Assembly: GCA_026545225.1 (NCBI GenBank)
Contig: CM048845.1
Span: 56,148,033-56,212,032, forward strand
Direction of reading: 5' to 3'
DNA length: 64,000 bases
Source: Cornus controversa
Taxonomy: Eukaryota; Streptophyta; Magnoliopsida; Cornales; Cornaceae
Positions 15,915-60,869 of this stretch are shown here, piece by piece. Each line of letters opens with the position of its first letter. Within the stretch, counting starts at the first letter, position 1. Position numbers and translations under genes: made by a program. Under the pieces are notes generated by a model. That model was given only the letters and a program-made list of their open reading frames with translations, was not told the origin of the DNA and did no database searches.

Positions 15915-15916
15915 CT

Positions 15917-16774: not shown

Positions 16775-17000
16775 ATAGTCGACTTTCTCTTCAAAAGAAG
16801 TCGACTTTTTTGTTCAGTAGCTTTTAGAGCTTTCTAGGAAGGTAAGATAGTCGACTTTCCCTTTTGGGACAGAAGACTATTTTACTGCCCTAAAAATCTC
16901 ATTTTTCTGGAAATCAGTATTTTGCACTTTCTGGGAGGGAAAGACAGTCGACTATTTGTTTTTGGGCATTTCTGGAAGGGTAAGACAAAAGACTATCTTA
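16775..17000. repeat. Palindrome array, AGTCGACT type, in plus-strand LTR
   Basis: AGTCGACT-centred words occur near 16777, 16799, 16849 and 16946, with degenerate AGACTAT forms between. The spacing is 20-100 bp. The array sits at the same place in the LTR where other copies carry different palindromes, beside the conserved block around 17040-17160 (CCAATGGTGTAAGTTTCAA-like words). Confidence 0.75.
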
Positions 17001-18915: not shown

Positions 18916-19170
18916 ACTTCGATTGTGCGAAAATGGGATTTCGATTGTGTGAAACTGAGGTTTCGTTGTGCGAAAAAAAGTTCGATTATGCAAAAATTTC
19001 ACCTATTCGGTACCTTGAACTTGCAATATTTCGCACGATCGAAATGGGGGTTTCGATTGTGCAAAATTGCCCCTGTCTGGACCCTAAAAATCACCATAAT
19101 TCACCACCACTTCGCACAATTGAAATGGGGGTTTCGATTGTACGAAATGGGAATTTTGCAAGATCGAAAT
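18916..19170. repeat. Palindrome array, TTTCGCACGATCGAAA type
   Basis: About eight units of TTCGATTGTGCGAAA or its reverse. The mid-array spacer (CACCTATTCGGTACCTTGAACTT, then GCAATATTTCG) aligns base for base with the spacer of 39538-39782. The units on both sides fall at the same aligned places although the core bases differ. Confidence 0.85.
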
Positions 19171-19889
19171 GCCCTCCACAGAACTTCCAACAACCCTATA
19201 CATGGTCCAGTTGGAGCTCAATCCACATTCAATCATCCTAGAACCTCCCATACATGATCCATAACATAATTGAAAGGTACCAACATCAATCACATACTCA
19301 AAATCATATTCATGATTAAATCATACATTGAAATGAATCATTCTCTTTCACAGCCATAATCCATTCCTAATGAAAACATCATCAAATGAATAAAAGCTAC
19401 CACGAGCACTACACAAAAAAATTCGTTATCTTTTCATGCCTAACAAGCTCATAATCCAATACATACATCAAAAGTACATTTGTCCAAAATATAACTACAA
19501 CTCAGAGAGGAGTCACATGCCACAAGCCGGCATGAATAGCCACAAAATGTACAATATCCAAAAGATAGCAAAATGCTACTAGAGTTCCACTTGGACACTT
19601 AAGTCCCATCAGTCATCGGTGTCTTATCTGTAAAAGAGTTTAGAATAAAGGGGTGGGCACTACTGCGGCTCAGTAAAGATACCCCAACCCTCCTAAGTGT
19701 CGACTCGACACCGACCTACATAGAATGCATATGAATACACTAGATGCCACATCCACAATCTCATAAACATATCAATAAATGCAATTAAAAAGATTTGCAT
19801 ATTTCACGAATCATGTATAACATGTTCCAACATAAAATAATTACAGAAAATAAATGATCTCTCTCTCTCGGTCCTCATCTGATACCCTA

Positions 19890-20260
19890 CATAATTGGCC
19901 CGCTCCGAGGATCATGTAACCTTGGACACCTCCGATAACCATCCAATGACCGGGACAACTCCGAAGGGTCATTCTACCATAAAAATATATAGGATTGCCA
20001 TAGAGTGAGGGGACAACTCCAAGGCTCACAATTCTTGGACATTCTCCGATAACCTTCCTATGACCGGAACAACTCCGAGGGGTCATTATTTCATAGCAAT
20101 GTATAGTATTGTCGTAGGGTGAGGGGACAACTCCGAGGCTCACTGATGTTGGACACACTCCGATCCTAGGCATTAAGCCTTAGTATAGCGGGTCCACTCT
20201 GAGGGCCATACATAGTGGGTAACTATACCATAATTCATAACACAGTTGGGCCACTCTAAA
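19890..20260. repeat. Tandem hairpin array, loop GGACAACTCCGA
   Basis: Units have stems that change and a near-constant loop: AATGACC/GGTCATT at 19945-19973, GTGAG/CTCAC near 20005, ATGACC/GGTCAT at 20060-20086, GTGAG/CTCAC near 20120. See the finding on covarying stems. Confidence 0.8.
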
Positions 20261-21459
20261 GTCCCGTGTACCTCCTTTTCGTTATTTTTTCCGCAACCTC
20301 CCACATATGTCATATGAATGCATACATGCCTTGCATTTTATTTTCATGCATTGTTCATGCTCAATAATACCAAAAGAAAGTATACGGCATATCTCCCATC
20401 ACAACATACTACATATAACACATATATGTACAACACATGCATATTACATCACATATGCATACTATTTCAAAATTAGCATATTTTAATCATGCTTCACTCA
20501 ATGCATACGTTTAGTATATAGAAATAGTATGCATTCAACACCCACATATAATCACATATATGACACTTGACACACATTTTTCACATATACACCAAATTGA
20601 TCACATAATGCCTATATACCAATTTCTTTCACTCACACACTTCAAACCCACATACTACAACCAACACAATGGACACAATTGTGAAATGATAGGACTCTAG
20701 AGAAGGATAAAACACAACTTTTCACACTTCTCACCATCCTAAAGCATGTGAAACATAACCTACACCTCTCCTCTTCCCCCAAAACCCTAGAATCGATAAT
20801 TAGAAGAGAAAAAAAACCCCTACCTCAAATTTGAAGGCCTTACAAGCACTTCCCAAAAATCCCAGCAATGTCCACCTTACCGAATCATGACTTTCTTTAG
20901 TTCAAACCGAAGCTCTTGTCGTCCCCTATGTATCTCCCTTCTTCGGCGGATCACGAATCACACTCGAAGGCCTCAAAAACTTAGAGAGAAGGAAGGAGGA
21001 GGAAGAAGAGAGAGAAAGGAGCCATGACTGGCTGTTGGAACATTAGAGATATGAAATATCTCTGCCACATCTGATATATGAAGTCCCTAGGCCACAAAAA
21101 GACCAAAATACCCCTAGGTCACTTAACGTAACTTCTCGGGTGCCATTTTCGATTTTGAAAGCTCCTACGGCCTTGTAATCACTTCCTCTACTCTCTAAAC
21201 ATTTCATCTAAGTCATTCCCAAAAATAAATATTTTCAAAAAATTTCTGGATTGTCGGGCCCACTTAAGTCGCACCCCGGGCCTTAGTTTGACCAAAAAGT
21301 TAAACTTCTCCAAATGTCCTAAAAATTTTCAAAAACCTCAAATTAACCTTCCAAACATGTTTTCCACTCTCGAAACATCCATAGCATCATTTTAAACGCA
21401 TCTATACCGAAAACGATAAAAAATTGGTAAACTGGCCAAAATTGGTCACGGTCTCTACA

Positions 21460-24242
21460 ATACGTTAAGTGGCCCGAGGGTGTTTTGGTCATTTTGCACC
21501 CTAGATATTATAAATATCTAAGGCTAAGAATCCTATCCATTTGAAAATTTGCCCAACTCTCTCTCTTCTCTCCCATTTCTTCTCTCCTTCTCTCTTCATT
21601 TCAGAGGTTATGGGCTTGGATTTGGGAGTTGTTGGTGAAAAATAACTTGTAGTACAGGCCAAGGGCTTTGGTGCAGGGACTCCCTCAGTCCAAGCCTGAA
21701 CTCCAGGGTAGTGAGGTGTCATGATCGCCCGATCGTCAACCTATGACCTAGACAACCATGGAAAAATTATTGCCAACATCATTCTCGGTTCCTACCCGAA
21801 CCACCGAGATCATTACATACAGCAAAAGTCTTTACATTTACCAATACATCAATCCCTTATCAGATATATCACAATAAACAACAATCTAAGTTGTTAACTC
21901 AAAGTCTAGCGGAAGCATTATTTATACCATTAATACCATGTATACATACATGTATAAGCACTTCAAATACAATGATCATTCTCACTACGGAGCCCAAATA
22001 AACATTACACTGCATATCCAATATGGCCATGGACTGTCAATTTTGCACAATCGAAGTGCCAGTTTCACATGATCGAAGCTATGATTTCGCTCAATCAAAA
22101 TTCTCACATGATCAAAGTACTTGCGAAGTACTATCGAGATCGTACTAGAATTTCACCTATCTTCCATCAAAAATTTTGCAACATGGTTCGCACGATCGAA
22201 ATAGCCCTCTGCAATTTTCCAACAATTCCACACATGGTTCATTTTATGCTCAAATTTTATTATATCAGCCTAGAATCAACTATACAACATTGCAATCATC
22301 TACAAATGTTATATCATCATACACTTACTCCAAATCATGCATTTTGATCACTATAGTCTCATTTTACCAATTCATCAATATAACCATTCTCACAAGTTAT
22401 ACATGTAAAAATGAACATAAATGAAGGATTGTCATTTAAATCATCTAGCATTCTACTATGCTTATAATGTATGAAATCATAAAGCATAAATAATATATGT
22501 TCCCGAAGTATAATTGGTCTTTACATGTTCTTCTCATTCATATAGTCCACAATCCAGACATGCATTCAAATAAAGTCTTTAAATGAAATCAACCCGCTCC
22601 ATGCCAAATTTACCATTGGGGAGACTCCATCACTTCTTTTTCATTTCTTGAAAAGAGTTAATACTCATGGGATGAGTAACCCCACACTCAGTAGGAATGT
22701 CTAAAACATAATTCCACAAGTTCTATGAATACCACATAAACATACATTTGCATTTAATTATATTAAGAAAATATCTATATATCACAACCATATTATAAGC
22801 AATGTACGATACAATATGATATGCACAACTCCCTCAAGCTCTCTACACATCTATTGGACTCCGCTACCCAGGATCATCTAATACCACCTAACCAAGGCTC
22901 CTTTACCGGTTTACCTCATCATAGGACTCCGTTTTAAGGAGTATCCTATTTCCTTTACCAGATTTTCTCACGAAGGTTTCCTTTATCAGATTACCTCATC
23001 ACTCCTCAAATGAACTTAACCGCCCAATTGAGCTCACCACCCTCACCACATGCTTACCCACATATGAAGATGAATTATACATGCTTATGAGTACTATACA
23101 TACATAATTGAAAATAATATTTTAACTACTCAAAATACTTATACATTTCCATACAATTCCCATATGCGTTCACATTGAGTATATATCACATTTTCCACAT
23201 TCCATGTCATTCATGTAAACAATTGAACATATTTCATATTTAAACATGCATTCATGGTATTTTATCAAACATAAAAGTACTAACTTCACATAAATATGTG
23301 AGTACACCTAATTCATTCATTTGTCAACTTCAACATGCCTACAAAATCATCTAAGGCAACTATAAACATGCAATTACATCAATTAACATTAATAATTCAT
23401 TAAATGACACAATTTATCATGCTTAGGTATTGAAAGACATCTAATTATACCCACATACCTAATTGGTTATCAAGACAACCAATATACTCACTAAAACCCT
23501 GAATTATATGGGCTAGGCATCCCTACCTCAATTTGGAAGAGCTTCCAAATGATTTTCCCAATTCCTCACCAAAAATAAATTTTCTCTGAATTCGATTCTG
23601 AACAAATCAAACTCGAGGCCTCAATGCGTTGACCATTTCTCTCTTCTTCAGCGTCTTCTAATTCTTGCCCCAAGCCCCTCTAATTCAATAGAAAATGAAT
23701 AAGATGATATAGATACATATATAGATATATATTTGCTCTCTCCTGGCTATTGGAGAATGAGAAATGAATTATTGAATTCTCTACTTTGTTATTTATTGAC
23801 CTAACTGTCATATTTACAAAAATACCACTAATCTCTCCTAAAACCTTCTTGGACTCCATTTTCAATTTTCATAACTCGGATGGACTCGAATTCGAATACT
23901 TAGTGTATTAAATATTTTATTTAAGCTGCTCTCCAAATTTGCTATCAGTCCAACACTTTAAAATTTTTTGGGCCCACAGGACCCACTTCCCGAGCTCACT
24001 TGACCCGAAAAAGTCAACTTTTGCCAAACGCTCCCAAATTTTTTTTGAATACTTATAAAGGTCCTTAAACATGTATTTTACATTTAAAACACATTTATAC
24101 TCATTTAAATCATTTATTTGAATTTAAATTAAATAAAAATAAAAACGGCTGAACAAACGTGAATTTTGGCAAGCTAGAACTTGGAGGATTTCTTGAGAAT
24201 TAGCTACAAAGTCTTCAAATTGGAGGTAGGGGTGTTTCTTCC
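21460..24242. mobile_element. Composite of LTR pieces: plus-strand fragment holding a minus-strand LTR (about 21717-24163)
   Basis: 21460-21716 and about 24164-24242 read as two parts of one plus-strand LTR. The words ACGTTAAGTGGCC and AATTGGAGGTAGGGGTGT match conserved blocks. Between them is a minus-strand LTR that starts TGTCATGATCGCCCG and carries its own palindrome array (22037-22206) and a hairpin-like region (about 22840-23010). The outer boundaries and target duplication are not clear to me. Fossil. Confidence 0.5.
22037..22206. repeat. Degenerate palindrome array, TTCGCACGATCGAAA type
   Basis: Units such as TTTTGCACAATCGAAG, TTTCACATGATCGAAG and TTCGCACGATCGAAA. It is more decayed than the array at 18916-19170 but of the same type. 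Confidence 0.65.
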
Positions 24243-25281
24243 TACTTATTATTTTTGAAAAAAATTTATTTTTGGTAATAGACCAAACAAAATGTATAAA
24301 GAGTTAAGGAAGTGATTTCGAGGTCATAGCCACTTTCGAAATCAGAAATAGAGGCTGAGAGGGTGCATTATGTGGCCTGGGGGCATTTTGGTTATTTCGT
24401 GCCTCAGGGACTTTAAATATTTGGGTTGTAGAGATATTTCACTTTTCACGGATCAAAACACATGCCCAAGTGTTGTATCTCTCTCTTCTCTCCCTCTTCC
24501 TTCTCTCTTCATTTCGGAGGCCACGGGCTTGGATTCGGGAGTTGCCAAAGAAGGACAAATTGTAGAGCTTGGTGAGGGCTTCAGTTTGAACCAAACAAAC
24601 TCAAGTTTTGGCAAGTTGGAACCCACTGGAAATCTTGGAAAGCCTTCAAATTCGAGGTAGGGGTGTCTTCTCCTTCTTTTCATCAATTTCTTAGGATTCT
24701 TTGTGAATTGTGGTAGTGTTAGCATGGTGTAGAAAGGTAGAAAACTATTTCTTTGATTTCCTTTCATGTAATTACATGCGGAGAATGTTCTTCATATGTT
24801 ATATGTGGTGTATGTGAAGCATGTTAGTTCTATGCATGTTAAATTGAGTTTTATGCCATCTATGTGGACTATATGAGGAGTGTGGGGTATATAAGTGTTA
24901 TATATGAGATTTGGTGAAATTGACATGCTAAGTATATCTTAATTGTGTTTTGCATGTGTTGTATAGGTTGAGTTGCGAAGCATGAGGTTTATTAGATTTA
25001 CTTTGAATCATGACTTGAGTTATGTGAACTTTGAGTGCCATATATTTAAGAAAATGCATTAAAGTAAGTGATTTTCCATGTTAATGCATTTGATGTTAGT
25101 TGTGGGTGAAATTGCATGTAATGCAATAACTGTGTCGTGCTTACCTAGTGTAGGTTGTCTCGGTAGGAAATGGAATTAGTATTGAAGGAGTTGAACTATG
25201 ATGATGGATACATACGAGTAGTGTGGTGAGATTGTGTCTTAATTGACGGATTTCAATTGATGAGGACCCTTGATGGTTTGT

Positions 25282-25360
25282 GAGGTTAACAGGTGTCAAC
25301 ATGTGATAATCTTGGTTTATGAGGTTGACAGGTGTCAACATGTGATAATCTTGGTTTGTC
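25282..25360. repeat. 39-bp tandem repeat with hairpins GTTGAC-AGGT-GTCAAC
   Basis: Two units starting at 25282 and 25321. The second contains a perfect 6-bp stem with an AGGT loop (25324-25339); the first has one changed base in the stem. Confidence 0.8.
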
Positions 25361-25803
25361 AAAACTTTTTATAGGTAAGACAATGATGACGAAAAGGACT
25401 TTTGTCAAAAGGAGCTCATAGGTGCATGTTAGTGCATTTTAGATATTTTGTATGGACTATGTATATGTTATCCGTGCCAGCACGTGGCATGTGAATTATG
25501 TTAATATTGTAGTTACATTTACATTATATGTAACTTGTGTATTCATTTGGACCTTGTATATATATGCACATGCAATGGAATTGCTTTATGGATATTATGT
25601 ATATATAAAATGATGTATATGATTTGTAAAAAATGTATGAGGATTGTGAGAGTTTTGTGATTCAAATGTACAATTTGGAGTATGTGGATGATGTTATATC
25701 ACTTGTAAATGATTGAGAGGTCGTATGAATGATCCTAGGTTATTGGGATGAGATTAGGACTCAAAATGATCAAGTGTAAGGTTGTAGGAGTGTCTGTAGA
25801 GGG

Positions 25804-25930
25804 CATTTCGCATGATCAAAGCTAATTTTTTATTATGCAAATTAGTTGTGAAATATTTCAGCTTTTGGGATCTTTGCAGAGGAAATTTCGCATTTGCAAA
25901 ATCTACATTTTGCATGTGTGAAATTTTTTA
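25804..25930. repeat. Weak palindrome array, TTTCGCATGATCAAAG type
   Basis: Degenerate units near 25805, 25835, 25887 and 25911, at the array position of the LTR. It is related to the CGCACGATCG class but decayed. Confidence 0.5.
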
Positions 25931-26753
25931 TTTTGTCCAAACTTTAATCGAGCGTAACTCTTCGTTTTAGATCGAAATTGAGTGTGATTTTTTTTTTAAA
26001 ATCAAGTATTTTTGAATCCTCTATCCAATGGTGTAGGTTTCAATTTCAAGTTCTAATCACACAAGAAGTTTCTTCCTAAAATTGAGTAGTTTATATGTGT
26101 GACTAGGTGTGGGGCCATTGAGGTTAAGGTTGGATGATATTGACTCATACATATATGAATGTATGTAGATGATTACGCTTCCGCAGTGATGAAAAAGGAT
26201 ATGATGGTTCATTAGGATAATGGATGGTTTTACCCTTGTGGTTCAGGCATAGGGACGGAGTCTCCGGTGACCCGAAGAGTTGATGTTGATTCCACCATTC
26301 ACCCCATTTCCCTCGCTTTTAACCGGGTGTTAGAAATTGGAGTGTGACAACTTGATATAAAAGCATGGTATCATGGTGGGATTAGAGATATGAGGTGATG
26401 ATGTAAAAACCTAATCAGCCTAGTTTCGGGAGTCAAAAATCAGGGCGTGACATAGCCACTCAAGTTCCATCTACCACCGGTGCCTTATCTGTAAAAAGGT
26501 TTGGGGAAGAGGGGTGAGCAAAACAACTAGCTCAGTAGGAATGCCCTAACCCACCTAGGCATCTACCCAACACCGACCTATGTGATATGCAATCATGATG
26601 TCACTACTCTACATGGCATAATCAATGCTCTCATGTCAAATTAACGTAAGTGCAATTCAATATGAATGTATTTAATCCATTCACCATGCTTAACAGTTAA
26701 ACACATAAGCATCACGATATTTACATTTTTTGGATCATAATCCGATACATAGA

Positions 26754-27025
26754 CATGATTGGTCAACCCTGACGATCATGTGGTGTTGGAAAACTCCGAC
26801 GACACCCGTATGATTTGGACAACTCCAAAAAATCATACATTCCCGGCAATATATTGGTCTTGCCATTGTGAGTGGGCAACTCTGATAGTCACAAGATATT
26901 TTGAACAACTCCGATTTCTAGGCATTAGCATTAGTATGATTAGGCAACTCCAAAGGTCATACTATAATGGTTAATTTCAACACTTCTATAACATGGTTGG
27001 GCAACTCCGAACCCTATGTATGGCT
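26754..27025. repeat. Tandem hairpin array, loop GGCAACTCCGA
   Basis: CATGATTG/CGATCATG (26754-26780), GGTGTTG/CGACACC (26782-26806), GTATGATTT/AAATCATAC (26808-26838, nine perfect pairs) and TAGTATGATT/GGTCATACTA (26932-26964). Loops are variants of GGACAACTCCGA. Confidence 0.85.
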
Positions 27026-27786
27026 CACTTGGACAATCCTCCAATATATAAACATATATGCACATTAGGCACATATAACACATAGCATACTTTTCATGCT
27101 CTTCAATGCACATTCTTGCTTTATATGATTTCTCGCATGCATTTCATCCTCACATTCTCACATACAACATATAATCACATATATGTTCACAATTATGCAT
27201 ATAATTCAAGTATCCATACAACTCATCATATTTCCAAATATGCTCATAATTTCATACACATTGCATGTATACATTCACCATATTATATATCACAATATGA
27301 ATAACATAAACATGTATAATTTATAATGAAAGAGGGGAAAGACAAAATCATTAAACCCCACTATTATCCCATACATGCCAACACAACCAAACTACTCCCA
27401 AACTGTCACGCCCCGAAATCCGGACCACCAGGACTCTCCCGGACCGATCCAAATCCCGAGTGTGAACTCATTCACCCAACGTGTCCCAAAGCTCAACAAC
27501 ACAAATCATACATAATCAGCAGAAGCATTTCTTACACATCAAAACCATTGATTTCAAGGGTCATTCTCAATATGGAATCCCACGTGCACAACACACTCAC
27601 CTGTTCACTAATTCTAAGTTAACTCAACTCACTTTTAGGACTCATCACTTCGTGTGTCTAAAATCTGAAGCTGACACCTACACCATTGGATAGAGAATCC
27701 AAAAATACTCAATTTCAAAAAAAGAATCACTTGATTCGGGTTTGAAAGGACCAAGTTATGCCCATTTGAAAATTTTGAAAATTTGT

Positions 27787-27925
27787 ATTAGTCGACTTGT
27801 CAGTCGACTTATAAGTGCATTAGTCGACTTATGAAGTCCATCAGTCAACTAATTTGCTGCCCTAGAAAACTCTAAAATACACTGCCAATGTTAGTCGACT
27901 TATAGAAAGGCGTCAGCCGACTTAT
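27787..27925. repeat. Palindrome array, TAAGTCGACTTA type
   Basis: TAGTCGACTT, CAGTCGACTTAT and TTAGTCGACTTAT units at about 27788, 27801, 27820 and 27891, with decayed ones at 27842 and 27913. Confidence 0.8.
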
Positions 27926-28664
27926 TCAACCTGGAAACCCCACTTAACACATTTTTAATCAAATTTCACCCCAAATCTCATATCTAAACCTTTCCAACAC
28001 ATGAAACTCATCCAACAACACCCAAATCATATAAAAATACCATATCACCATACCCGTTTATCAAATAATACATTTGAATCACAAAGACTACACAATCCAC
28101 AATTCATTCCCATTAACCAACCTCATCTTTATACATACAAGGTTCAAATGGAAAACATAAGTTACATATATGATAATGTAACTACAACATGTATATAACC
28201 CCAAAACATTTATTGGGTCCAAAATATACATCCCAAATCCAAGTGGCTTCCAAGTTCATAGTCATTACAAGGATTTCATGCATGAAGTACAAAAATGCTA
28301 AAAATCCAACCATGACTACAACTACATAGATAACGTGCCACAAACCAGCACGGATAGCCAAAAATACAATGTCCCAATATACATCAAAATATGACAGGAG
28401 TTTCACTTGGACACTCAAGTCCCATCTATCACCGGCGCCTTATCTGTAAAAGAGTTTAGAATAAAGGGGTGAGCACCATTACGGCTCAGTAGGAACGTCT
28501 AAAACACAATTCCGTAAGATTCGTGAATACCACGTAAACATACATTTGCATTTAACATGTTGAATAATTATACACATAACACAACCATATCATAAGCAAA
28601 GTAAAAATGCAACATGATATGCACAACTCCCCCATCCTTTCCACACATCCATTGATCTCCAATT

Positions 28665-28805
28665 CTACCATAGAGGGTTACCTTTACCGGAATACCTCTT
28701 GAGGGTTACCTTTACCGGAATACCTCACTACACATCAATCCATGGGGGTACCTTGACCGGAATACCTCATGAGGGTTACCTTTACCGGAATACCTCGCCA
28801 TTTTA
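28665..28805. repeat. Repeats GAGGGTTACC-TTTACC-GGAATACCTC
   Basis: Three exact or near-exact units plus one variant (GGGGGTACCTTGACCGGAATACC at 28744) at the hairpin position of the LTR. The ends pair (GAGG/CCTC and CC/GG) around TTTACC, the same loop as in 40677-40975. Confidence 0.75.
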
Positions 28806-29539
28806 CCGAATGGATTCCACCATCCACATTACGCTCGCCTCCCTCACCATGCCAATTAAGATGAACCCCACAATTTTATCCAATGTACATTCATTAACTA
28901 CAACCAATGAGGCATTTAACGATTACATTTGTACAAGTTCTCATTTAAGCACCATAGGTGTTTACAATGAACATACTTCACAACCCCACATCTCACATAA
29001 CCACGTATCCTTCACATTTCACCAATTTCACAAATTTGACAATAAAATCTTGCCTTGCAATAAAACATGTCTCTAAAGTAATTTATCAAACATATAAAAG
29101 TCACCTTCACAATTACACACGAACCCATCAAATAAATTCACAAAACAATTCCAACATGCTTATAAATTTCCCTAAGGCACTTATAAACTTATAATTACAT
29201 CAACCAATAGAAAAAAATCACATTTAAATGGTAAGAATAACATGCTTGAACATTGAAGAACATGTAATTACCCCACAAAACCAATTGGTTGTCATAGACA
29301 ACCAATATACTCACAAAACCCCCAGATTTTATGGGTTAGACATCCCTACCTCAAGTTGGAAGAGCTTCCAATTGGATTTTCCCAAATTTCACCCAAAAGA
29401 TCAACCTTCTCCAAAATTGATTTTGGACCGATGAATCTCAAGCCCTCAACGCATAGATCGTTTCTTCCTTCTTCGGCGAACTCAAATTCTCACTCAAGAC
29501 CCCTCAATATCTATGAAGAAAGGAAGAAGATGAAAAAGC

Positions 29540-29542
<3 letters not shown>

Positions 29543-29587
<45 letters not shown>
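29543..29587. repeat. (AT)n microsatellite
   Basis: About 45 bp of alternating TA, inside the solo LTR 27404-30034. Confidence 0.95.
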
Positions 29588-29588
<1 letters not shown>

Positions 29589-30816
29589 GTATAAATGCTT
29601 ATATGGCTAGGAGAAGAGAGTGAGAATGGCTGAGTTCTCATGGCTATTTATAGCCTAAATGACCTACTTATAATTACAAGTATGCCATCACCTTTTCACT
29701 GAACCTTCCCGGGCTCATTTTTGGAGTTTCGTAACTTCGATTGACACGAAATCAATTTCGTTACGCGTCAAATATTTTATTTAAGCTACCCTCCAAATTT
29801 GAGATCGTTTCGAGACTTTCGGATTTTCTCGGCCCATGGGGCCCGCGCCCATGGGTTGACCGGACCCGAAAGAGTCAACTTTTGCCAATTGCTCCGAAAA
29901 CTTCTCCAAACCTTAAATAAGTTATTTAAACATGCATTTTACATTTAAAACACATATACAATCATTTAATGTCTTAATATGATAATTAAACGAAAATTCA
30001 AGAAAATTGGCCAAAAATGGTCACGGTTCTTACAAAAACATAGGAATTGATGAATAGAGGGAAGAAACACCCCTACCTCAAGATTGAAGCTTTTCCTAGC
30101 CAACCCTAGAAATCACCAAGCTTCAAACTCCGCCAAATTGTACTTTCTTTTTATACAATTGTAGATCGGTACAAAGAGAACAACTTTTCCTTCTTAGACA
30201 AGACCCAAATCCAAGCTTCAACCCCATTCAATTTCTAAAATATTCCAAAATGTGACTTTGAACCCACCAACTTGAAGAGAAAAAAGAGGAGAACAATTTT
30301 CTCTCTTGGAGCAAGCCCGAAATTTCACTCTAAGGCTCTCAAAATAAAGGAATAAGATGAAGAGATTGGAGAGAGCTCTAATGGCTGACCTTCTCTCTTC
30401 TAAAATTTGTCTAGCAATATACACTTACATGTATTTACAATACATTAAGTGTAAAATGACCATTTTACCCTCAAGTCACTTAACGTACCTCCCGAATTTC
30501 ATTTTCAATTTTGAAAGCAGCTACGGCTCCGAAATCACTTCCATATCTCTTAAAATATTTCAAATATTCTAAAACAAAAAATAAATATTTTTTTAAAATT
30601 TTTTGAATTTTTGGGCTCACCCGACCCAAGTTTCAGGCCCCGCCGACCCAAAAATCTCAAATTTCACCAAAAGTCTCCCAAAACTTCTCTGAACCTCTAA
30701 ACAAGTTCCCAAACATGTTTATCACATTCAAAACACACATAACATCATTTAAAATCCATTTATGACAAAAATGATGAATAAAAGAAAATCGGTCAAAATT
30801 GAACCCGGTCTCTACA

Positions 30817-34228: not shown

Positions 34229-35051
34229 ATTTTAAAATAAGAGGAAAAGAGAAAGAAATATCTCTAAATCATATTAATGAATGGTATGATCACAATTAAC
34301 GGCAGCAAGTTAACCAATCATAGGAATCCTAATTTGATATAAAAAAAGTTAAATATAAAATATACTAATATATTTCAACACTCCCCCTAAACTAAAGGTA
34401 GGCTATACGACGCCATCTGGAGTTTGAAACAAGCTCTCGAAAGCGACCTGGTGGAAGAGATTTGGTGAAAATATCCGATATCTGATCATGCGAAGTGGCT
34501 GACTGTAACTACAAGGTATTCTGAAGTAGATAATGACAGATAAAATGGCAATCTATCTCAATGTGCTTGGTCCACTCATGAAAAACATCATTGTGTGCAA
34601 TCTGAATAGCACTCTTGTTATCACAATAGATGAGAGTATCAATGGATGAAGAAACACCTATATCCTGAAGAAGCCATTATAACCATAAAAGCTCCGAAGT
34701 AGTATCTACAAGTGCTCTATACTCATCCTCAGTGCTAGAATGAGCAATAACGGACTACTTATTACTACGCTAAGAGATCAGTAAGTCACCAAGAAATAAG
34801 CAATATCCTATAGTGAAATGGTGATTTGTTGGGTCGCCAGCCCAATTTGCATCAGAATAAGCACGAAGCACCAATGAAGACTAATGAGAGAAAAAGAGCC
34901 CAAGAAATATAGTACCCTTGACATAGTAGAGAATACGAAGAACAACAGCAAAGTGAGCTGATTGCGGCAAAGCCATGAACTGACTGACGATATGAATAGC
35001 ATGTGAAATATCTAGACGAGTGACAGTAAGATATACCAAACTACCAACCAA

Positions 35052-35774
35052 CTAACGATACAGAGTACCCTCACGAAGAAGCTCACCATCATGTGGAGTG
35101 AGTCTCACATTAGGCTCAAGTGGAGTATCAACAATCTTGTTGTCTATGATGCCGGAATAGTACTTTGCTTGAGTAAGGTAGTAGCCATCAGTAGCTCTAG
35201 TAATTTCCAGGCTAAGAAAATAACTGAGAGGTCTAAGATCTTTCGTTTTAAACTGATGATTGAGAAACTGCTTAAGTTCCTGACTACCCTTAGTATCATC
35301 CCCGGTGATGATCATATCATCAATATAAAGCAAGAAGAATAACACCATGTGCAATACGCCGAATAAATAAAGCTAAATCATATGTACTGGTAGAATAGCC
35401 AATGCGAGAAAAAGTAGAACTAAACTTGGCGAACTAAACTCGAGGTGCCCGTTTAAGACCATACAAAACACGCGTAAGCCAATAAACCAAATAAGGTGAA
35501 TAATCAAAACCTGGAGAAGGCTTCATATAAACTTCCTCAAGCAAATCACCATTGAAGAAGGCATTTTTGATATCCATCTGAAAAAGTTCCCAATGACGGG
35601 AAGCAACCCCAGCAAGAAGAGTATGAATAGAAGGAAGACGAGCAACAGGGGAAAAAGTCTCCTCAGAATCGATGCCATACTCCTGTGTGAACGCCCTTGC
35701 CACAAGTTGGGCTTTATAGTGCTCAACAGACCCATCTGAACGAGTCTATATTTTGTAGACCCATTTAGATCCAA
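35052..35774 (-). pseudogene. Copia reverse transcriptase region
   Basis: Minus-strand frames read ARAFTQEYGIDSEETFSPVA and DIKNAFFNGDLLEEVYMKP, then LLYIDDMIITGDD (the YxDD-type RT motif). These are standard Ty1/copia RT landmarks in the right order. Fossil copy. Confidence 0.85.
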
Positions 35775-36090
35775 TGGCAGACTGCCCTAGAGGCAATTCA
35801 ACTATATCTAATGTTTAAGTCTGGGCAAGTGCATCTAACTCTTCTTTCATTCCTTACTGCCAAAAAGGGTTAGAGAAGGTGTCATGCCCTGATTTTTTGA
35901 CTCCCGAAAATTGAGGGTGAACCTGTCCATTTTGCCCTAATAAACCATTAATCCCTTTATATTATCGTGAAAGCTTAAATCACGTGCATGTACATATGTG
36001 CATACAATACAGTCTCAACCAATCTCAATGGACCCCACACTTAACTTCACACATTTGTCCCACCATACCTAACTACTAACCCTTCCTATA

Positions 36091-36400
36091 GATTACAATA
36101 CATCGTAATCTTATTTATGATACATCGTAAATTATGATGCATCGGACATGCCACGTAACATGGTGCGAGATCTTCTATCTTCTTTTCTAACCCAAATTCC
36201 TCTAAGGCATTACGATACTTTGAAATATTGATTCCGATGCATCGTCAAGTACGATGCATCGCCAAAGCTACGTAACATGTTGCGAAAAGTTCTATTCTCA
36301 AACCCAGATTCCCAACCTTATTACGATACATCGTTTTAGAGCTTTCGATGCATCGCCAGACTTCGATGGATCGCTAGACTTTGATGCATCGTAATAGGGC
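36091..36400. repeat. Palindrome array, ACGATGCATCGT type, with an internal 125-bp duplication
   Basis: About nine units, some decayed, such as TTACGATACATCG and TACGATGCATCG. A segment containing ATGCATCG...CGTAACATGKTGCGA occurs twice, near 36136 and 36260, showing that array growth included local duplication. Confidence 0.8.
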
Positions 36401-37144
36401 TTAAGATGAATCCTAACCCCTCGAACCTAATTTATGCAGAACTTCCTAATGTTCAACAATCTATACAATCTTTATTCTGTTCGCATCTAAATACATCAAT
36501 CCTAATTTCTTAGAATCATTTATAAAACCTTTGTAAGATCATAAAGGCACATTGATTCATAATTATCATACAATGGAATCAAATTACACATATGATTGAT
36601 CATGATTCCAATATACATACATCATCCCCATTAGACATCTATAAGTGGTCTAAATCATACATTTCATTAAATAGTTTTCCCAAGTCTATAGCCACATATG
36701 AATTGCATGTCTAAGGACTAAAAATAAGAGTAATTCAACTATCACTACAACTATAACAAAAAAATTAACATGCCACAAGCCATCATGGAGCCATATACAA
36801 AATAACCAAAATGAATCCAAAATGCCAAAAAGGACTTCGCTAGGACATTCACGTTCCATCCGTCATGGGCGCTTTATCTGTAAAAAGTTTGAGAGAAAGG
36901 AGTGAGCAACTCAACGGCTCAGTAGGAATGCCCCATCCCACCTAGGCATCGACCCAACACTGACCTATATGATATGCAACTATGATGTCGCTATATTACA
37001 TGACATAGATCAATGTTCTCATGTTCAATACTTCACAAATGCAATTCAATAAATATGCATTTAAACCATACAACATGCTCAACTGTTAAAACACATAAGC
37101 ATCAAGATATTTACATCTTCTTCAGTCATAATCCGATACATAGA

Positions 37145-37415
37145 CATGATTGGTTAACTCTGATGATCATGTTTTGTTGGGCAACTCCGATGATACCAAA
37201 GTGTTGGTCAACTCTGACGACACTTATATGATTGGGCAACTCCAATGGTCATATATTCATGACATTATATAAGCCTTGCACTAGTGATTGGGCAACTCCG
37301 ACAATCACTACACTTGGGGTATGATTGGGCGTCTCCGATGATCATCCCATTGTGGTCATTCCCACCACTTCAAATGCATGGTTGGTCATCTCTGAATTTT
37401 CATGCACACCACACC
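37145..37415. repeat. Tandem hairpin array, loop GGCAACTCCGA, varying stems
   Basis: CATGAT/ATCATG (37145-37171), AAGTGTTG/CGACACTT (37199-37225), TATATGATTG/ATGGTCATATA (37225-37255), TAGTGATTG/CAATCACTA (37282-37310, nine perfect pairs), ATGATTG/TGATCAT (37321-37345) and TGCATG/CATGCA (about 37375-37406). Confidence 0.85.
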
Positions 37416-38610
37416 TGGATAATACTCTGACATACACAAGTATACATGTTCATAAGGCACATATAGCTCACATAACATATAATTCTCATGCTCGTTAATG
37501 CCCCTTCTTGCTATAATAATTCTATTATGCATTTCATCTACTCAAATTCCCATATAGCAATATAGCAACATATATGCTTCAACTCATGCATATCCATCAC
37601 ATATGTATAAAATTCATTTCATAGCAAAACATGCTCTCATTTCATATACATTGCAAGTATAATCACACAATTCATCACATATCATGAATTGAACTACTCT
37701 AGCATGTATAATTACACAATACGAAGAGGGGAAGGATACTTTACTCAACTCCCACCACTAACCCGTATATGCTAGCACACTTTATACAATCTCAAATTCA
37801 CCCATACCTTAGAATCGACAACTAAGAGGGAAGAAACACCCCTACCTCAAGTTTGGAGCTCTTCTTAGCAAGCCCTAGAATTCACCAAACTTCAAGTTTC
37901 TCCAAATTGTAACTTTTTTCATAGAAACGTAGATCGAGACAAGGAGAGTGAACTTTCCTTCTTGGACGAAGCCTGAATCCAAACTTCACTCAACCCAAAT
38001 TTTTGGAACTCTCCAAATGGGAACTTTGAAATAACCAAAGTGAGGAGGAAGATGAGGGGAAGGACTTTCTCTCTTCGAGCAAGCTTTAAATCTCACCACA
38101 AGGCACCTAAAATGAAGAAAGAAGGTTGGAGAAGAAGGAGAGCTTGAGAGGTCTTCACTGGCTGACTTTGTATCTCTCTATAATCTGCCCCAGCAATATA
38201 CACTTAAATGTATTGACACCTCACCAAGGGCAAAATAGTCATTTTGCCCTTAAGTCACTTAACGTACCTTTCAAGCTCCGTTTTTGATTTTGAAAGCGAC
38301 TATGGCTCCAAAATTACTTCTTTAACTCATTAAAAATTTCATTGGATCCAAAATCAAATATAAATATTTCTCAAATTTTTGAACCCACCAGACCCGCTTC
38401 CCGGGGTCCGCCGACCCAAAATTCTCAAATTTACCCAACCGCTCCCAAAACTTCCCAAGACCTCTAAGAAAGTTCCCAAACATGTTTTCAACATTTAAAA
38501 CATGCTAAACATCATTTAAAATGCATTTATGACAAAAATGATTAAAAAAAATAAAAATCAGCCAAAATTGATCTCAATCCCTACAGAAGGCCTCGCGAAA
38601 AGTGTGAGAT

Positions 38611-39141
38611 TCATGAAGGGTTGCAAGAATATGATAACAATGATAGTAATGAAGATGTGTAGGGTTGATCCAAAATAGTGACACCATCAGGAACCTCAAG
38701 CGGGACAGATGATTGGAACTCAACTACAGGAGGGTCAACTATATGTGATGAGCCAGAAGGGTCAACTGTATCTGATGAGCTAGCAAGAGGAAAATCTAGA
38801 AAAAGATCTACAGAAGTATCTAAAGGAGGAATAAGAAATTGGTGATCAGAAATACCAGTGAATCTGGATAAAGTATGAAACATTTTATATTCCCAAAAAA
38901 TAACATGACGAGAGACTCTAAGGTGTATCGTAACTAGATCATAACACCTATATCCCTTTTGTTCAAATCCATACCCAAGAAAAAAAATAAAACTGAGCTT
39001 GAGGTTACAATTTTGTTCGTTCATGAGGATGAAAAAGAACAAAACAAGCACACCCAAAAACTCAAAGATTACTATAGTCAGGAATCTGCCTGTAGAAATG
39101 CTCATAGGGTATTTGATTTTGTAAACATGGTGTGGGTACAC
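38611..39141 (-). pseudogene. Copia integrase C-terminal region
   Basis: The minus-strand reading contains QKGYRCYDLVTIHLRVSRHV and IFWEYKMF, the typical region after the copia integrase core, followed by a low-complexity linker to RT. Flanked by solo LTRs 1 and 2. Fossil. Confidence 0.75.
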
Positions 39142-39537
39142 AATTCATGGTATAGACAGCTGTAACGCCCCGATTCCCCGTCTCCCGGGCAACCGGAGGT
39201 TAACCCGTCCATTAGTCCCAATGGACCCTCATTACCCTTATTCCCTGCGGAAGCTTAACCTAATTCTTGCGTATGAATGCACAAAAATCCATCTTAACCA
39301 ACCCCCATGGGCCCTACATCAAATCACACACCTTAGTGAACATTTACACGCCCACACTTTTAAGAATCACTCACTTTCGAGCCTCAAAACTTTCTGTGTT
39401 TGGAATCTGGAACTGAGGCTTACACCATTGGATATAGAATCCAAAAATACTGAAGTTCAAAAAAAACCACGCTCAATTCCGATCTAGAACGAAGAAATTA
39501 CGTCAAAATGAAGTTTTGAAAAAAGCTGTGAATAGTA

Positions 39538-39782
39538 ATCTCGATCAATCGAAATTGGCATTTCGATCAATCGAAATGCATCTCGATTAATCGAGATTTT
39601 GACCCCATCAATCGAAGCAAACACCCTCTCGGTATCTTGGACCTGCATTATTTCGATTAATCGAAACTGGGACTTCGATTGATCGAAATAAGGCCTGAAA
39701 ATACATAAAATCTCGCAACCATTTCGATCAATCGAAATGGGCATCTCGATTAATCGAAATGGGCATTTCGATTAATCGAAAT
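39538..39782. repeat. Palindrome array, TTTCGATYRATCGAAA type, in a long LTR
   Basis: Eight good units and one decayed unit, at 39538, 39560, 39580, 39605 (decayed), 39650, 39672, 39721, 39742 and 39764. The motif is the one used by the unrelated Athila LTRs. The spacer CCCTCTCGGTATCTTGGAC also matches the Athila interior array. Confidence 0.9.
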
Positions 39783-40676
39783 GCACTGCCCGGAAATTCC
39801 CAAACACCTATACAAGATCAAATTGAACCCAAATCTCAACCAAACCACCTTAGATCATTCATATTTCATATAAATCATCTACCATTGATATAAAATCATA
39901 CTCACACATCAACCTATACATTTGAGTCTCAAATCTTGCATAATCATAGAAATTTCCCTAGGTTCACAATACACCCATAACTCAAGTGTATAAACCAACC
40001 TTGATTTCCAAATTCATTTCCAAAACACCAATCTCACACTCAAATCACTTTCATAATTGAATTCATACACCAAAATGAATCATTTCTTTCACGCACACAA
40101 CCCATTCAAAATGAAAACATCATCAAAATGAATAAAATGCCACCATGGGCGCTACATATATTAAACCATTGTCTTTTCACACCCAACAAGTTTATAATCC
40201 AATACATACATCAAAAGTACATATGTCCAAAGTCCAACCATAACTCAAAACATAAGTCACATGCCACAAGCCGGCATGGATAGCCACAAAAATCAAAAGA
40301 TAGCAAAACCACCACTAGTGTTCCACTTGGACACTCATGTCCCATCCGTCATCGGCGCTTTATCTGTAAAATATTTAGAATAAAGGGGTGAGCACCACTG
40401 CGGCTCAGTAGAGATACCCCAACCCAATTAAGTGCCGACCCGACACGACCTACATGGATGCATGTCACAACATTTCTCATATCATTCAACATATATCATG
40501 TTCACTCACAACAATGCATATATACATATAGGGATGCATTAAACACTTATCATGCTTCATAATTCAAACGAAGGCAAAAATCATACACTTGTCTCTCTCT
40601 CGGACTCAACCCGACATCCCAACATAATTCTTGACCGAATCATGAAACCGAGACACTTTTTCACACCATTCCAATT

Positions 40677-40975
40677 CCGCCACCGAGTATTTACCTACTC
40701 CAAGGTGGATAGACCACCGTCACCGAGTATTTACCTACTCCAAGGTGACTTGGCCCCCTTTCTTGAATTCTCACCGAGTATTTACCTACTCCAAGGTGAC
40801 TAACCACAATCACCGAGTATTTACCTACTCCAAGGCGATTGGGCAACCTTTTTAGAATCTCCACCGAGTATTTACCTACTCCAAGGTGAGTAAACCACCG
40901 TCACCGAGTATCTACCTACTCCAAGGTGACGCAACCACTCCAACGCCCTCTCCGAGTATTGACCTACTCTAGGCA
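40677..40975. repeat. Tandem hairpin array, loop TTTACC
   Basis: Six units of CACCGAGTA-TTTACC-TACTC...GGTG plus a variant, spaced about 55-60 bp. Outer stem bases change in step in several units: CCACC/GGTGG, GTCACC/GGTGAC, and AATCACC/GGCGATT. Confidence 0.85.
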
Positions 40976-42172
40976 ATTCAACCACACTTCCCCGTTTCCT
41001 CATAACGGCCCCAATATATGCATTTTCGAACATATAAACATCAAGCATTTAATTTTATGCCTCACAATGCACATGCTAATTAATAAAAACATAAAGCATG
41101 CATTTTATCTCCACTACACCACACATATATTTACCTATACATGCCACCCTAGCATAATATCCACATATGCTCACAAAACTTCACTTAAGCACATTTTAAT
41201 CATGCTTTACAAATGCACATATTTTCTATACAAATATAGCATGCATTTAACTCACTTACAACATATAACACATATATGCCCAATATAACACATTTCCACA
41301 TATATGCACAAAAGCTAGCATATAAGCATACATGCTCTCATCCTCCCACATTCTCATGCATTTGTCACTCACATCATGCATACTAGGAGATACACATCTA
41401 TTGCACACAAGAGACTCAAGAGAAGAATAAAAACACCTTATCCCATCCCTCTTACATCTCTAAAACATGCAATACTCAACCTTAGCTCTCACCACTTCAC
41501 CCGAAACCCTAGAATCGACAAGTAGATGAGAAAGAACACCCCTACCTCAAAAATGAAGGCCTTCCAAGCACTTCTCAAATTTCCAGCAACGTCAACTTTG
41601 CCAAACCGCAACTTTGATCGGTTCAAAGGGAAGCCCTAGCCGTCCCCTACGTATCTCCCTCCTTCGGCAAGCCTTGAATCCAAGCCGAAGACCACCAAAA
41701 TCTAGAGAGAAGGAAGAGAGAAGAAGTGGGAGCAATATAGAGAGAGAATCAGCCGTGAGATATGAAATATCTCTGCAAATTTTGGCCATTTAAGGCCCCT
41801 AGGTCACGAAAAGACCAAAATACCCCTAGGCCACTTAACGCACCTTCCCGGACTCCTTTTTCGATTCCAAAAACTCCCACGGTCTTGAAATTACTTCCTT
41901 AACTCTATAAACATTTCATCTAAGCCATTCCCAAAAATAAATATTTTTGAGAATTTTCCGGATTTCCGGGCCCACTTAAGTCGCATCCCGGGCCCCGGTT
42001 TGACCAAAAAGTCAAACTTCTCCGATTCTCCCGAAAACTTCCCAAAACCTTAAAAACACTTCCCAAACATGTTTCCTACACTCAAAACATGTTAAACACC
42101 ACTCAAAATGCATTTATGGAAATTAAAATGCGAAAAATGCAAAACCGGCCAAAATTGGTCGCGGTCTCTACA

Positions 42173-44694
42173 ACAGCAGTGAGAGATGTTTCACCCCAAA
42201 ACGATGATGGCACAGAAAAAGGATAAGTGATCGAGCCAAATCTAAAATATGTCAAAGATTTCGTTCAGCTTGACCATTTTGTTGTGATGTACTACGGCAA
42301 GAGGAGTGAAAAATAGTGCTATAGTGTTTGAGAATATTTTGACAATCGTTTTGCCTGTATTCTGTAGCATTATCAGAATGAAAATTTTTGATATTTGTGG
42401 AAAATTGAGCTGCAACCATTTTGGTGAAATCATGAAAGATGTTGAGTAATTCAGAACAAATTTTTTATTAAAAATATTCAGGTGAAACGTAAAAAATCAT
42501 CCAAAAATATAAAAAATATCGTGCCCCACACATGGTGGCTATAGGAGAAGGTCCCCAAACATTAGAGTGAACAAGATCAAATGGAGAAGAAGCAAATGAC
42601 TCACTATTATTAAATGGTAAAGCAGATTTTTTGCCTAATTGACGAGAAATACAATCAAAAGACTCAGTTTTAACCTATCCTCACAAACCCTTAGATACTA
42701 GACTTTTGACTTAAGATACCGATGCATGACCTAAACGAGAATGTCACAACTTAAGAGTAGGTATAATACTTCATGTAGATGTAGCTATGATAGATGAAGT
42801 AGGTATATGTAAGGAAGAAAGCTCAAATAGTTTCCCTGTCTTACGACCTGTACCATTAGAGGAAAAATGTTATATTCAAACCTAGCTCAGTTAATTGACC
42901 AACAGATAAAAGATTAAGAGAAATATTGGGAACAAGATAAACATTGGAAGCAGACAAATTTGACTAAGAGACAGTGCCCATGTGACTAATGGCCATAGTA
43001 GAGCCATTAGTGATGTAAATAACATATGCATAAGATGTAGGAGTTTGAGTAGTGAGCAAAGTTTGGTCAGGTGTTATATGATTGTAGCAGGTAGAGTAAA
43101 AAACTATGAATTAAGTATACCTGGTGTGGTTGAGAAAGCAAAGTTAGATGAGCTTGAACCTGAATGGTTGGATAGAAAGTGGTTGAGAATTGCCCCCAGA
43201 TCAGCAGCAGAAAATGTGGATGGGGACTCCTCGGAAGGAGTAGTAACATGTGCAAAAGGAGAAGAATGATATGACACTATCTCTATAGTAGCTATAGTTG
43301 TAGCATTGCGAGGTCTAGTAAGTTTGAATCATTCCTCAATTGTATATCCTAATTTGTGATATTATCAGCAGAAACGTTCACTAGTTTGGGGTTGAAATGA
43401 CTGTGCTCGCTGTTTGTTACCACCATTGCGATGAAAAGAAGAAGAATATTTGTTGAGTGAAGGCCCTGATTGAAAATACTATGATTGCGAAGATCGTGGG
43501 TGCGCACACTAAAAATGAGCAGATGGTGTAACCAAGATAGGGAGATGAGTCTGAATCGTAGAACAAAGGGTCTGTAGACGTATCTCCTCTCGAACAAGCT
43601 CATTAAAAGCTTCATCCAATGATGGGAGAGGTGAGCGATGAAAAAGCTGACCTCTCACATGGACAAGCTCATAATCATTATAAAGATTCATCAAAAATTG
43701 ATACAGGCGTATTTGATAACGAGACTCATAAAATTTCTTTCTCTCTGAGGTAACTATCTATAATGGTTTTGACGAAGCTTGCTGATCCCAAAGACACTTT
43801 ATGTGAGCAAAAATCTCATTAATCCTCTGACCAGACTCTTGTCTAATATGACAAAGTTGGACCATTAACTGATACTGATGAACATCAATAGAGCCAGAAT
43901 ATCAAAAAATAAGCATGTCCCAAACCTCTTTGGCAATTTCATAACCCCCAAATTCCATACTAATGGAAGAATTGGTTGTGTTGCAGAACCATGTGATAAT
44001 CTTTTGATTATTGTTATCCCAGTCCTCAACACAAGAAGCAAAGGTTTTATCTTTCTCATTGGTATCCTTAACAGGCAATTTTCAATCCCCTGTGATGTAG
44101 GACCATAGCTTGTATCCTTTAAGAAAATTGCGCATAGATTGACTCCAAAAAATACAATTGTCCCCATCAAATGTAACAGAATGGGTTGAGAAATCTCATT
44201 TTGAGCTATTTAGAAATTCCAAATGACAAAACAGACTGGAAAATTAGAATCAGTACAAAATTTCAGGCTGGGTAGGCCCAAGAAATTTTTTTCAGGTGCT
44301 ATTGCTGACGTGGCAAGAAAAGGGCTGACGTGGTAGACGACGAGGCAGAAAAAGATGACGTGACAAGCGACACAACAAAAAAGATGATGTGGAAGACAGT
44401 GTCGCTGATGTGGCAAATATTATATATTTTTGGTGCTGATGTGGCAGACGACGTGGATGATGATATGGCGATGACGTGGCACTTAAAGCTGAGTCAGGGA
44501 TGACTTGGCATTTATGTGGTGTGTGTGTCAGTAGGAAAGAACCCAGAAGATTCAAACAGCACGTGGGGGTACGTGAAGGCTTCGTTTCAGCTGATTTTGG
44601 CGATGATTTGATCATCTGGTTGAGGGCTTCATTCTGATATATTCAGAAGAACAAACGGAGTTCCAAAAGAGAGATTTTTAGCACTAAATAAAAA
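42173..44694 (-). pseudogene. Copia gag and integrase region
   Basis: A stretch between solo LTRs 2 and 3 that continues the minus-strand copia element towards its 5' LTR. Fragments of integrase (about 42.2-42.9 kb) and gag-like frames (about 43.3-44.6 kb) are spread over several frames. Assignment rests mainly on position and on weak similarity. Fossil. Confidence 0.55.
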
Positions 44695-44900
44695 ATAGTT
44701 GTCACGCCCTGATTTTTGACTCCCGAAAATTGGTGGTGACATCCGTCCATTTCACCCTAACAGACCGTTTCAACACCTCAAACACCATAAAAGCATAATT
44801 CACATGGATGCACATATGTACTTACAATGCGGACCTAACCAACCTCAATGGGTCCCACATGTACTACTACACAATGATCTATCTACCAACTCATCTCCAT

Positions 44901-45085
44901 GGATTACGATGCATCGTAATCCACTTTACGATGCATCAAAGTTACGATGCATCGGACAAGTATCGAACTCATTGTCGAGCTCTCGGGACTTTTGATCTCA
45001 AATTCTCTGTAGACATTTACGATACATCGTCTTGTGCATTACGATGCATCGCTGTGTAATGGGGATTATGATGCATCGTAATCCC
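44901..45085. repeat. Palindrome array, ACGATGCATCGT type, with a perfect 22-bp palindrome
   Basis: 44901-44922 is a perfect 22-bp palindrome centred on TGCA. Further units lie at about 44928, 44943, 45020, 45041 and 45067. The spacer CTCTCGGGACTTTTGA (44980-44995) matches the Athila interior spacer, although the palindrome core differs. Confidence 0.9.
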
Positions 45086-60861: not shown

Positions 60862-60869
60862 AGAAAAAA

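Follow-up and report, generated by a model that had tools for sequence, protein, structure and literature searches.

Dyad-unit arrays in the long terminal repeats of two Ty3/gypsy families of Cornus controversa, with differing half-sites in one of them

Arrays in the window and the elements that carry them

The window analyzed here is a 64,000-nt stretch of the Cornus controversa genome (contig CM048845.1, positions 56,148,033 to 56,212,032, in the 772-Mb assembly GCA_026545225.1), in which long terminal repeats (LTRs) of two Ty3/gypsy retrotransposon families carry arrays of short dyad units. A preliminary description of the window had listed eight arrays in copies of the longer LTR and proposed that most units of an array switched motif together while the spacers stayed put. 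Palindrome arrays are present at all eight places (Table 1), and two types, XX and XZ, lie far above shuffled controls. The array unit is a 16-bp dyad at one LTR position, with a pitch of mostly 22 bp. Six alphabets were distinguished: XX (TTTCGATYRATCGAAA), XZ (TTTCGATYRTGCGAAA, one TTTCGAT and one TTTCGCA half-site), ZZ (TTTCGCAYRTGCGAAA), GG (with CGG/CCG in a minority of loci), BB (TTACGATGCATCGTAA) and EE (AGTCGACT core). The cores read CGATYRATCG, CGCAYRATCG, CGATGCATCG and AGTCGACT; CGATYRATCG and CGCACGATCG, presented earlier as separate cores, differ in one half-site.

Units were detected by the outer pattern TT[T/A]CG-N6-CG[A/T]AA, with dinucleotide shuffles as control. A strict scan for 16-mers with at least seven of eight pairs matching (500 shuffles) was dropped for this detector because it misses XZ arrays, whose units are heterodimeric. 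Under the strict test, 39538-39782 contains six units (0/500 shuffles as high) and 44901-45085 two (4/500); one unit was found at each of 27787-27925 (26/500), 16775-17000 (63/500) and 25804-25930 (111/500), and none at 36091-36400, 18916-19170 or 22037-22206. Several arrays are therefore imperfect dyads. The supposed weak CGCACGATCG array at 25804-25930 turned out to consist of ZZ, ZZ and XZ, and 16775-17000 contains only four AGTCGACT-like 8-mers.

Two LTRs of 2,988 nt on contig C9, 99.5% identical and with ends TGT...ACA, define the first family; the array occupies sense positions ~2361-2610 of this LTR, close to its 3' end. The family belongs to Ty3/gypsy because its internal region, read in one copy (L009/L010) with pol on the minus strand relative to the window orientation, contains gag, RVP_2 protease, reverse transcriptase (RT), RNase H and integrase pieces; the Pfam domains RVP_2, RVT_1 and RT_RNaseH are of Ty3/gypsy type, and the RT piece has Ty3 Gag-Pol among its best solved relatives. 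We take the primer site after the LTR to be of the initiator-Met kind, which it resembles. In the piece read, Pfam detected SH3_Tf2-1 but, with E values to 5, no chromodomain after the integrase; by eye the tail looks chromodomain-like, and the element may be a Del/Tekay chromovirus. In this copy no element-encoded binding protein was found among the coding-strand open reading frames (ORFs) of at least 120 aa, which carry gag-pol domains only; three further ORFs of 122-146 aa lie on the opposite strand. Of the first-family LTR at 39161-42174 in the window, 1.3 kb (39161-40463) is 96.6% identical to the C9 element and the last 1.0 kb (41152-42172) only ~79%, and the middle has no match to it longer than 200 nt.

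Several other features of these repeats were recorded. Window positions 40235-40456 form a conserved LTR block apart from the array, also found in five other window LTRs; five of the six window copies contain TTTTACAG there, which in sense is similar to a 3' splice site. Matches to the XX array on G000:C3 (~4371716-4403943) recur every 7,995-7,996 bases (at least five listed), so that LTR-internal units apparently stand in tandem there; L011 is the one unit read. In L012 and L013 a retrotransposon copy lies within a tandem repeat of 738 bases, which itself contains a sub-repeat.

A scan of all collected sequence revealed XX clusters outside the first family. They belong to a second family, located in the window at 2990-16240, with LTRs of ~1.4 kb (TGATG...TATCA) and the Ty3/gypsy-type domains RVT_1, RT_RNaseH and rve. 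An extra ORF lies between integrase and 3' LTR as in Athila/Tat, the label that we assume for this layout. The outer bases are TCTCGA...TCGAG in four of five units in each of LTRs A and C (one C unit has a decayed CpG) and TTTCGA...TCGAAA in three of six units of LTR B. XX-type sites also occur in a solo LTR of this family, flanked by a 5-base target duplication, in L011 (one unit read), where it is nested in an LTR. The internal array follows integrase and precedes the extra ORF in sense, and its TATA-like box is 37 nt sense-downstream; in LTRs A and B, a TATATA stretch stands ~130 nt downstream of the array. Among the matches listed on C1 (~1-16 Mb), XX pairs stand ~11.6 kb apart with internal pairs ~4 kb from one, the same plan as in the window element. 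The 3' half of the second family is present twice in tandem at 2990-16240 (86% identical), each half with a weak PF20167-like ORF. The segment at 7786-8085, sense-downstream of the internal array, contains, besides the TATA-like box, a CT-rich run as well as GAGGTAAGT, which resembles a 5' splice site. Elsewhere in the window, two protein kinase genes (48445-50257 and 60611-62411) are ~90% identical, probably through local duplication.

Table 1. Positions of arrays, LTRs and coding pieces in the window.
Feature	Position	Strand	Description
XX array	39538..39782		8 scored units TTTCGATYRATCGAAA, slot 4 degraded; nine slots at a pitch of mostly 22 bp
Spacer 1 of XX array	39618..39650		aligns to spacers of XZ, ZZ/XZ and second-family internal arrays
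XZ array	18916..19170		nine slots in XX register; 8 of 9 units XZ, 1 unclassed
Degraded XZ-type array	22037..22206		3 XZ units, 1 unclassed
Mixed array	25804..25930		ZZ ZZ XZ, reverse orientation
BB array	36091..36400		7 units classed BB, core CGATGCATCG
BB array	44901..45085		5 units classed BB
EE array	27787..27925		six AGTYRACT-like cores
Weak EE-like array	16775..17000		four AGTYRACT-like cores, reverse orientation
First-family LTR	39161..42174	-	mosaic relative to C9 element
LTR A, second family	2990..4377	-	ends TGATG...TATCA
XX-type units in LTR A	4102..4196		five units, four TCTCGATYRATCGAG
LTR B, second family	11663..13084	-	98.7% identical to L011 solo LTR (351-1770); 90% to LTR A
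XX-type units in LTR B	12786..12900		six units
Partial LTR C, second family	15917..16240	-	five XX-type units at 15959-16057
Internal array, second family	8085..8365		ten XX-type units and spacer homologous to first-family spacer 1
TATA-like box TATTTAAA	8046..8053	-	37 nt sense-downstream of internal array
RT, RNase H, integrase pieces, second family	8532..10915	-	domain matches
Extra ORF after integrase	6216..7400	-	PF20167 ~28 bits, below cut-off 45

Half-sites and scaffold in XX and XZ arrays

Further XX loci were collected with the array itself as query (eight loci cut, the best 40 scored), and the other types with flank queries lacking the array, from which 30 of 40 matches were taken for each of the L18 and L27 types and 20 of 40 for each of the L44 and L25 types; each genome search scores the best candidates only, which under-samples rare or distant arrays. 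An anchor pattern of 29 bases adjoining the array has 657 matches genome-wide and none in the reversed control. Both XX arrays (mean 8.0 units, 8 loci) and XZ arrays (8.4 units, 30 loci) compare with 0.6 units in shuffles. The BB (L44-type) group reached 3.4 units (20 loci) versus 0.4 shuffled, its left flank itself yielding 1.5 units per 302 nt, and the L25-type group 3.2 per array. By their inner six bases, L39-type units were XX in 64 of 64 cases; L18-type units were XZ in 241 of 257 (16 unclassed, no XX or ZZ), L44-type units BB in 76 of 89 (one XX, one XZ, 11 unclassed), and the L25-type units (20 loci, one flank family) comprised 24 XZ, 14 ZZ, 10 GG, 6 BB and 14 unclassed. The L27-type loci contained 162 AGTCGACT-like cores over 30 loci. 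Among flank hexamers, each class appears at a background rate of 1-3%.

XX and XZ arrays are colinear, with nine slots in register, which bears out the earlier statement that units fall in the same slots. Between the XX array (L001) and 30 XZ loci, one half-site differs alike in all nine slots: the right half is AT in XX against TG in XZ in slots 1-4, 6 and 8, and the left half is AT against CA in slots 5, 7 and 9. The unchanged half is AT in both types at nearly every locus with letters. Depending on the slot, the TG or CA half is present in 19 to 29 of the 30 XZ loci, letters being absent at three to eight loci in slots 1-3. Outside the inner bases the two types differ by 38% in spacers and linkers, 23% at outer unit positions, 20% in the left flank and 43% in the right flank. 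The reported alignment of spacers between 39538-39782 and 18916-19170 held once computed with units masked (score 16.0 versus a shuffle maximum of 15.0; 0/1000), and XX spacers scored 20.0 versus 11.0 against the highest-scoring of three further XZ loci (0/60 shuffles).

A separate LTR, L002:131-770, combines the two types. It has XX units in seven of seven readable slots and a left flank that differs from the XX family by 8.8%, and its spacers and right flank are 16-21% from the closest XZ locus, on average 26-30% from the XZ loci and 41-47% from L001. This LTR is thus a mosaic of XX units and an XZ-like scaffold. It bears on the possibility that an array of another alphabet simply replaced the old one, through recombination of co-packaged RNAs or DNA copies and with no change in place. 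Such wholesale exchange draws support from the mosaic nature of both this LTR and the window LTR at 39161-42174, from the related modules in two element families and from the occurrence of BB arrays beside two kinds of left flank. However, XX and XZ remain in register over nine slots and the two spacers, L002:131-770 retains XZ-like spacers with its XX units, and the donor itself would have needed XX units on an XZ-like scaffold. We regard exchange as quite unlikely to be the general explanation, while it may well explain BB, GG and EE.

The flank phylogeny was built from 40 rows, namely 35 of the 88 L39-, L18-, L27- and L25-type loci (thinned or unlabelled loci being left out) and five window arrays; of the 37 inner branches, 23 remain unresolved. 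Six labels require seven changes on this tree (minimum 5; shuffled mean 22.5; 0/200 as low). XX forms one clade, joined to 11 of 15 XZ rows with a support of 99/100. Median nearest-neighbor flank identities are 0.974 for XX, 0.937 for EE, 0.917 for XZ, 0.903 for the L25 type and 0.860 for the L44 type; since the XX loci were picked by best array match, their flank identity is biased upward. The XX copies look youngest in the first family, because their flank identity is the highest and the C9 LTR pair is 99.5% identical.

Neutral homogenization would account for the same pattern by gene conversion, slippage or template switching, including correction of imperfect palindromes from XZ to XX or ZZ, and would require no selection by a protein. 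XX and ZZ are indeed the two perfected forms of XZ, the XX clade joins XZ rows as just described, and XX dyad positions covary (17 CG, 12 TA, 6 TG, 6 CA; Fisher p 0.013, with units not independent). Template-switch mutations that extend the arm identity of quasi-palindromes are described in the available part of PMC3820800. But the linkers and spacers escaped homogenization, all units differ, with starts 20 to 59 bp apart and in both orientations, and XX-type sites occur in arrays ~4 kb apart within one element and in two families. Homogenization alone is therefore an unlikely cause. Quasi-palindrome-perfecting template switching, together with module exchange, probably did part of the spreading of new half-sites.

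Uniformity of arrays and the case for a dimeric binding protein

The preliminary description had expected a uniform motif within a copy. In 74 of 84 arrays (10 with fewer than two classed units each were omitted), 1318 of 1360 unit pairs (0.969) agreed, compared with 0.422 after shuffling; the score also leaves out L001 and L014, which duplicate arrays of the window, and the 30 EE loci, for which a different detector is required. Uniformity is high but not absolute: it fell to 0.548 in the L25 type (0.319 shuffled; 1/2000 as high), and two scored arrays other than the mixed ones treated below contain a single odd unit. Genome-wide, neighboring pairs numbered 2520 for XX-XX, 63 for ZX-XZ, 2 for ZZ-ZZ, 10 for XX-XZ and 0 for XX-ZZ, the 10 places with XX beside XZ comparing with ~136 expected if types were independent. 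These counts require intact CpGs and cover a single XX/XZ arrangement (XX then an XZ unit that begins with its TTTCGAT half, or the reverse complement of this pair), so this XX/XZ mixing is a lower bound.

Links among the other alphabets were examined through spacers, with one to four chosen loci per alphabet. The spacer of the second-family internal array matched XX (0/300 shuffles; one locus), BB (0/300; best of four loci) and XZ (2/300), more weakly ZZ/XZ (16/300), and neither GG (255/300) nor EE (220/300); the module is therefore at least partly common to both families. BB is tied to the common scaffold solely via this array. Concerted switching is supported for XX/XZ and in part for ZZ/XZ.

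The statement that all cores keep CpG sites in CpG-poor DNA applies to three alphabets, in which the observed/expected ratio of the array exceeds that of the flank clearly (XX 1.94 versus 0.74, XZ 1.14 versus 0.39, EE 0.74 versus 0.37); enrichment is slight for BB (0.97 versus 0.77) and the L25-type group (0.75 versus 0.69). The central YR and the lost CpGs look like CpG decay. Protection of CpGs in place was considered and rejected, as array CpGs of older XZ copies are lost at about the flank rate.

Sense-strand folding exceeded that of shuffles, with z -9.3 for XX (one locus) and -4.6 to -7.7 for XZ (four loci), and six of eight array pieces reached z -2.88 or lower. Unit hairpins might therefore act at the RNA level, as an RNA signal or as small-RNA templates, in which case the changes would reflect small-RNA escape or stem compensation; palindromes of maize Sireviruses are hotspots of small-RNA mapping according to the accessible portions of PMC10760457 and PMC5311732. 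Several results speak against it. Antisense folding is stronger than sense in 11 of 17 loci, which favors a signal at the DNA level; decay of CpG to TG shows no clear excess over decay to CA (121 to 108), where G-U tolerance would predict one; and slots 1-4 of the XZ window copy, a run in the same orientation, fold poorly (z -0.82). RNA structure as main cause was rejected, since folding is strong yet not stronger on the sense strand, and we consider an RNA-level role very unlikely.

Of the three explanations offered earlier, a dimeric DNA-binding protein fits best, and simple gene conversion leaves the spared linkers and spacers unexplained. Our preferred reading, to which we assign a probability of roughly 0.55, is that the arrays are clusters of putative dyad sites for host dimeric DNA-binding protein(s), in a regulatory module that would aid LTR transcription and be exchanged between elements, the whole array tracking the specificity of the protein. 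It is suggested by the recurrence of one dyad in three kinds of location and in both families, by the position of second-family arrays upstream of TATA-like boxes, by the retention of sites while linkers drift, and by folding without sense-strand preference. Half-sites such as TTTCGAT and TTTCGCA would be paired within 16 bp and repeated at intervals of mostly 22 bp, about two helical turns, and the units of an array would be bound by one or more host-encoded dimers. The module would activate rather than silence transcription. A lineage may change its whole array after a shift in the specificity of the available protein, or to escape a repressor, and recombination or template switching could carry the module between families and help new half-sites spread. 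We infer selection on the sites.

A number of observations weigh against the host-dimer reading. ZZ and XZ are mixed in five of the 74 scored arrays (the L25-type arrays L102, L103, L108 and L113, and window 25804-25930), slots 5, 6 and 9 being ZZ and slots 7 and 8 XZ in L113, L103 and L108; switching is therefore not always complete, and mixed arrays, named earlier as evidence against concerted switching, do exist in part, as do the 10 places with XX by XZ. Homology of EE and GG spacers to other alphabets was not shown with one to four loci each: the nearest GG scores were 2/60 shuffles against ZZ/XZ, a marginal link, and 1/60 against EE, where mainly masked letters aligned. Older XZ copies kept 59% of CpGs in the array and 60% in the flank (21 array and only three flank sites; 29 loci), so the sites are unprotected in dead copies. 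None of six first-family loci examined has a TATA box 3' of the array, and a TATA-like TATAAAC 5' of it in the ~3-kb LTR is not conserved, for which reason a candidate box at sense 1950 was rejected; the first-family array may thus lie in the transcribed leader. No alphabet change was seen in the second family, where four LTR copies and one internal array are all XX-type.

A more far-reaching version is possible, though we consider it less likely than not: several LTR retrotransposon families of the genome would have one alphabet in common, and alphabets would succeed one another (in the first family XX after XZ; in the second, XX was the only one read) through dependence on the same fast-changing host dimer, with heterodimeric XZ as a bridge between homodimeric sites. 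Under the host-dimer reading, the successive site changes, recorded while the scaffold stays fixed, would permit a direct test of a protein coevolving with many sites at once, and the identity of the putative binding protein would reveal what the youngest retrotransposons depend on or are recognized by. Passage of the module between elements is also suggested.

Comparison with known systems

The statement that no description of such arrays was known proved too strong in view of the LTR palindrome arrays of Sireviruses (PMC2829016) and the coevolving motifs of VANC (PMC5735166); our comparison rests on the parts of the cited papers available to us. Slot-by-slot switching of half-sites, or such arrays in Ty3/gypsy elements, was not found described in our searches of the open-licence PubMed Central literature. 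The REM/B3 factors are host dimers that bind DNA at short, spaced motifs and act at silenced loci in the recruitment of Pol IV (PMC12270911); their motif consists of TTTTGCTTAT direct repeats with one-base spacing, and their role is silencing. In maize, Sirevirus LTRs contain palindrome clusters with strong predicted structure and rapid change, and one palindrome is common to Copia elements and Helitrons (PMC10760457, PMC5311732). The arrays here share the clustering within LTRs, the strong predicted folding and the rapid change. In PMC10760457, palindromes are reported for maize Copia LTRs, and Ty3 elements are generally without an obvious peak.

The RM boxes of Sireviruses are element-specific CpG palindromes, present in many copies within the LTR, that also occur upstream of ENV and of the TATA box (PMC2829016). 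As in that system, the palindromic unit is present in many copies (threshold at least 8 per element; XX 8.0, XZ 8.4), and the second family has arrays at the same two places, 5' of the ENV-position ORF and of a TATA-like box (37 nt and ~130 nt); a TATA box after the array was not seen in six first-family loci. Sireviruses are Ty1/copia elements, whereas both families here are Ty3/gypsy, so that palindrome arrays extend to two families of that superfamily. The Sirevirus core is CGG-CCG and that of the arrays here TTTCG-N6-CGAAA; among Sireviruses, Tnd-1 also is without the CGG-CCG core (PMC2829016). Unlike what the available part of that paper describes, several alphabets occupy one scaffold in one family, with half-sites that differ slot by slot.

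In Arabidopsis, VANDAL DNA transposons contain the targets of VANC, short motifs in noncoding repeat arrays that differ between related elements; the target units diverge together, and coevolution with the DNA-binding protein has been proposed (PMC5735166, PMC10398659). VANC is encoded by the element, whereas the first-family copy read here (L009/L010) has gag-pol domains only. VANC motifs share one orientation and their repeats are gained and lost, whereas XX and XZ slots persist. On the evidence of these sources, the RM boxes of Sireviruses are the nearest relatives in kind of the Cornus arrays, and the VANC targets are their nearest evolutionary precedent.

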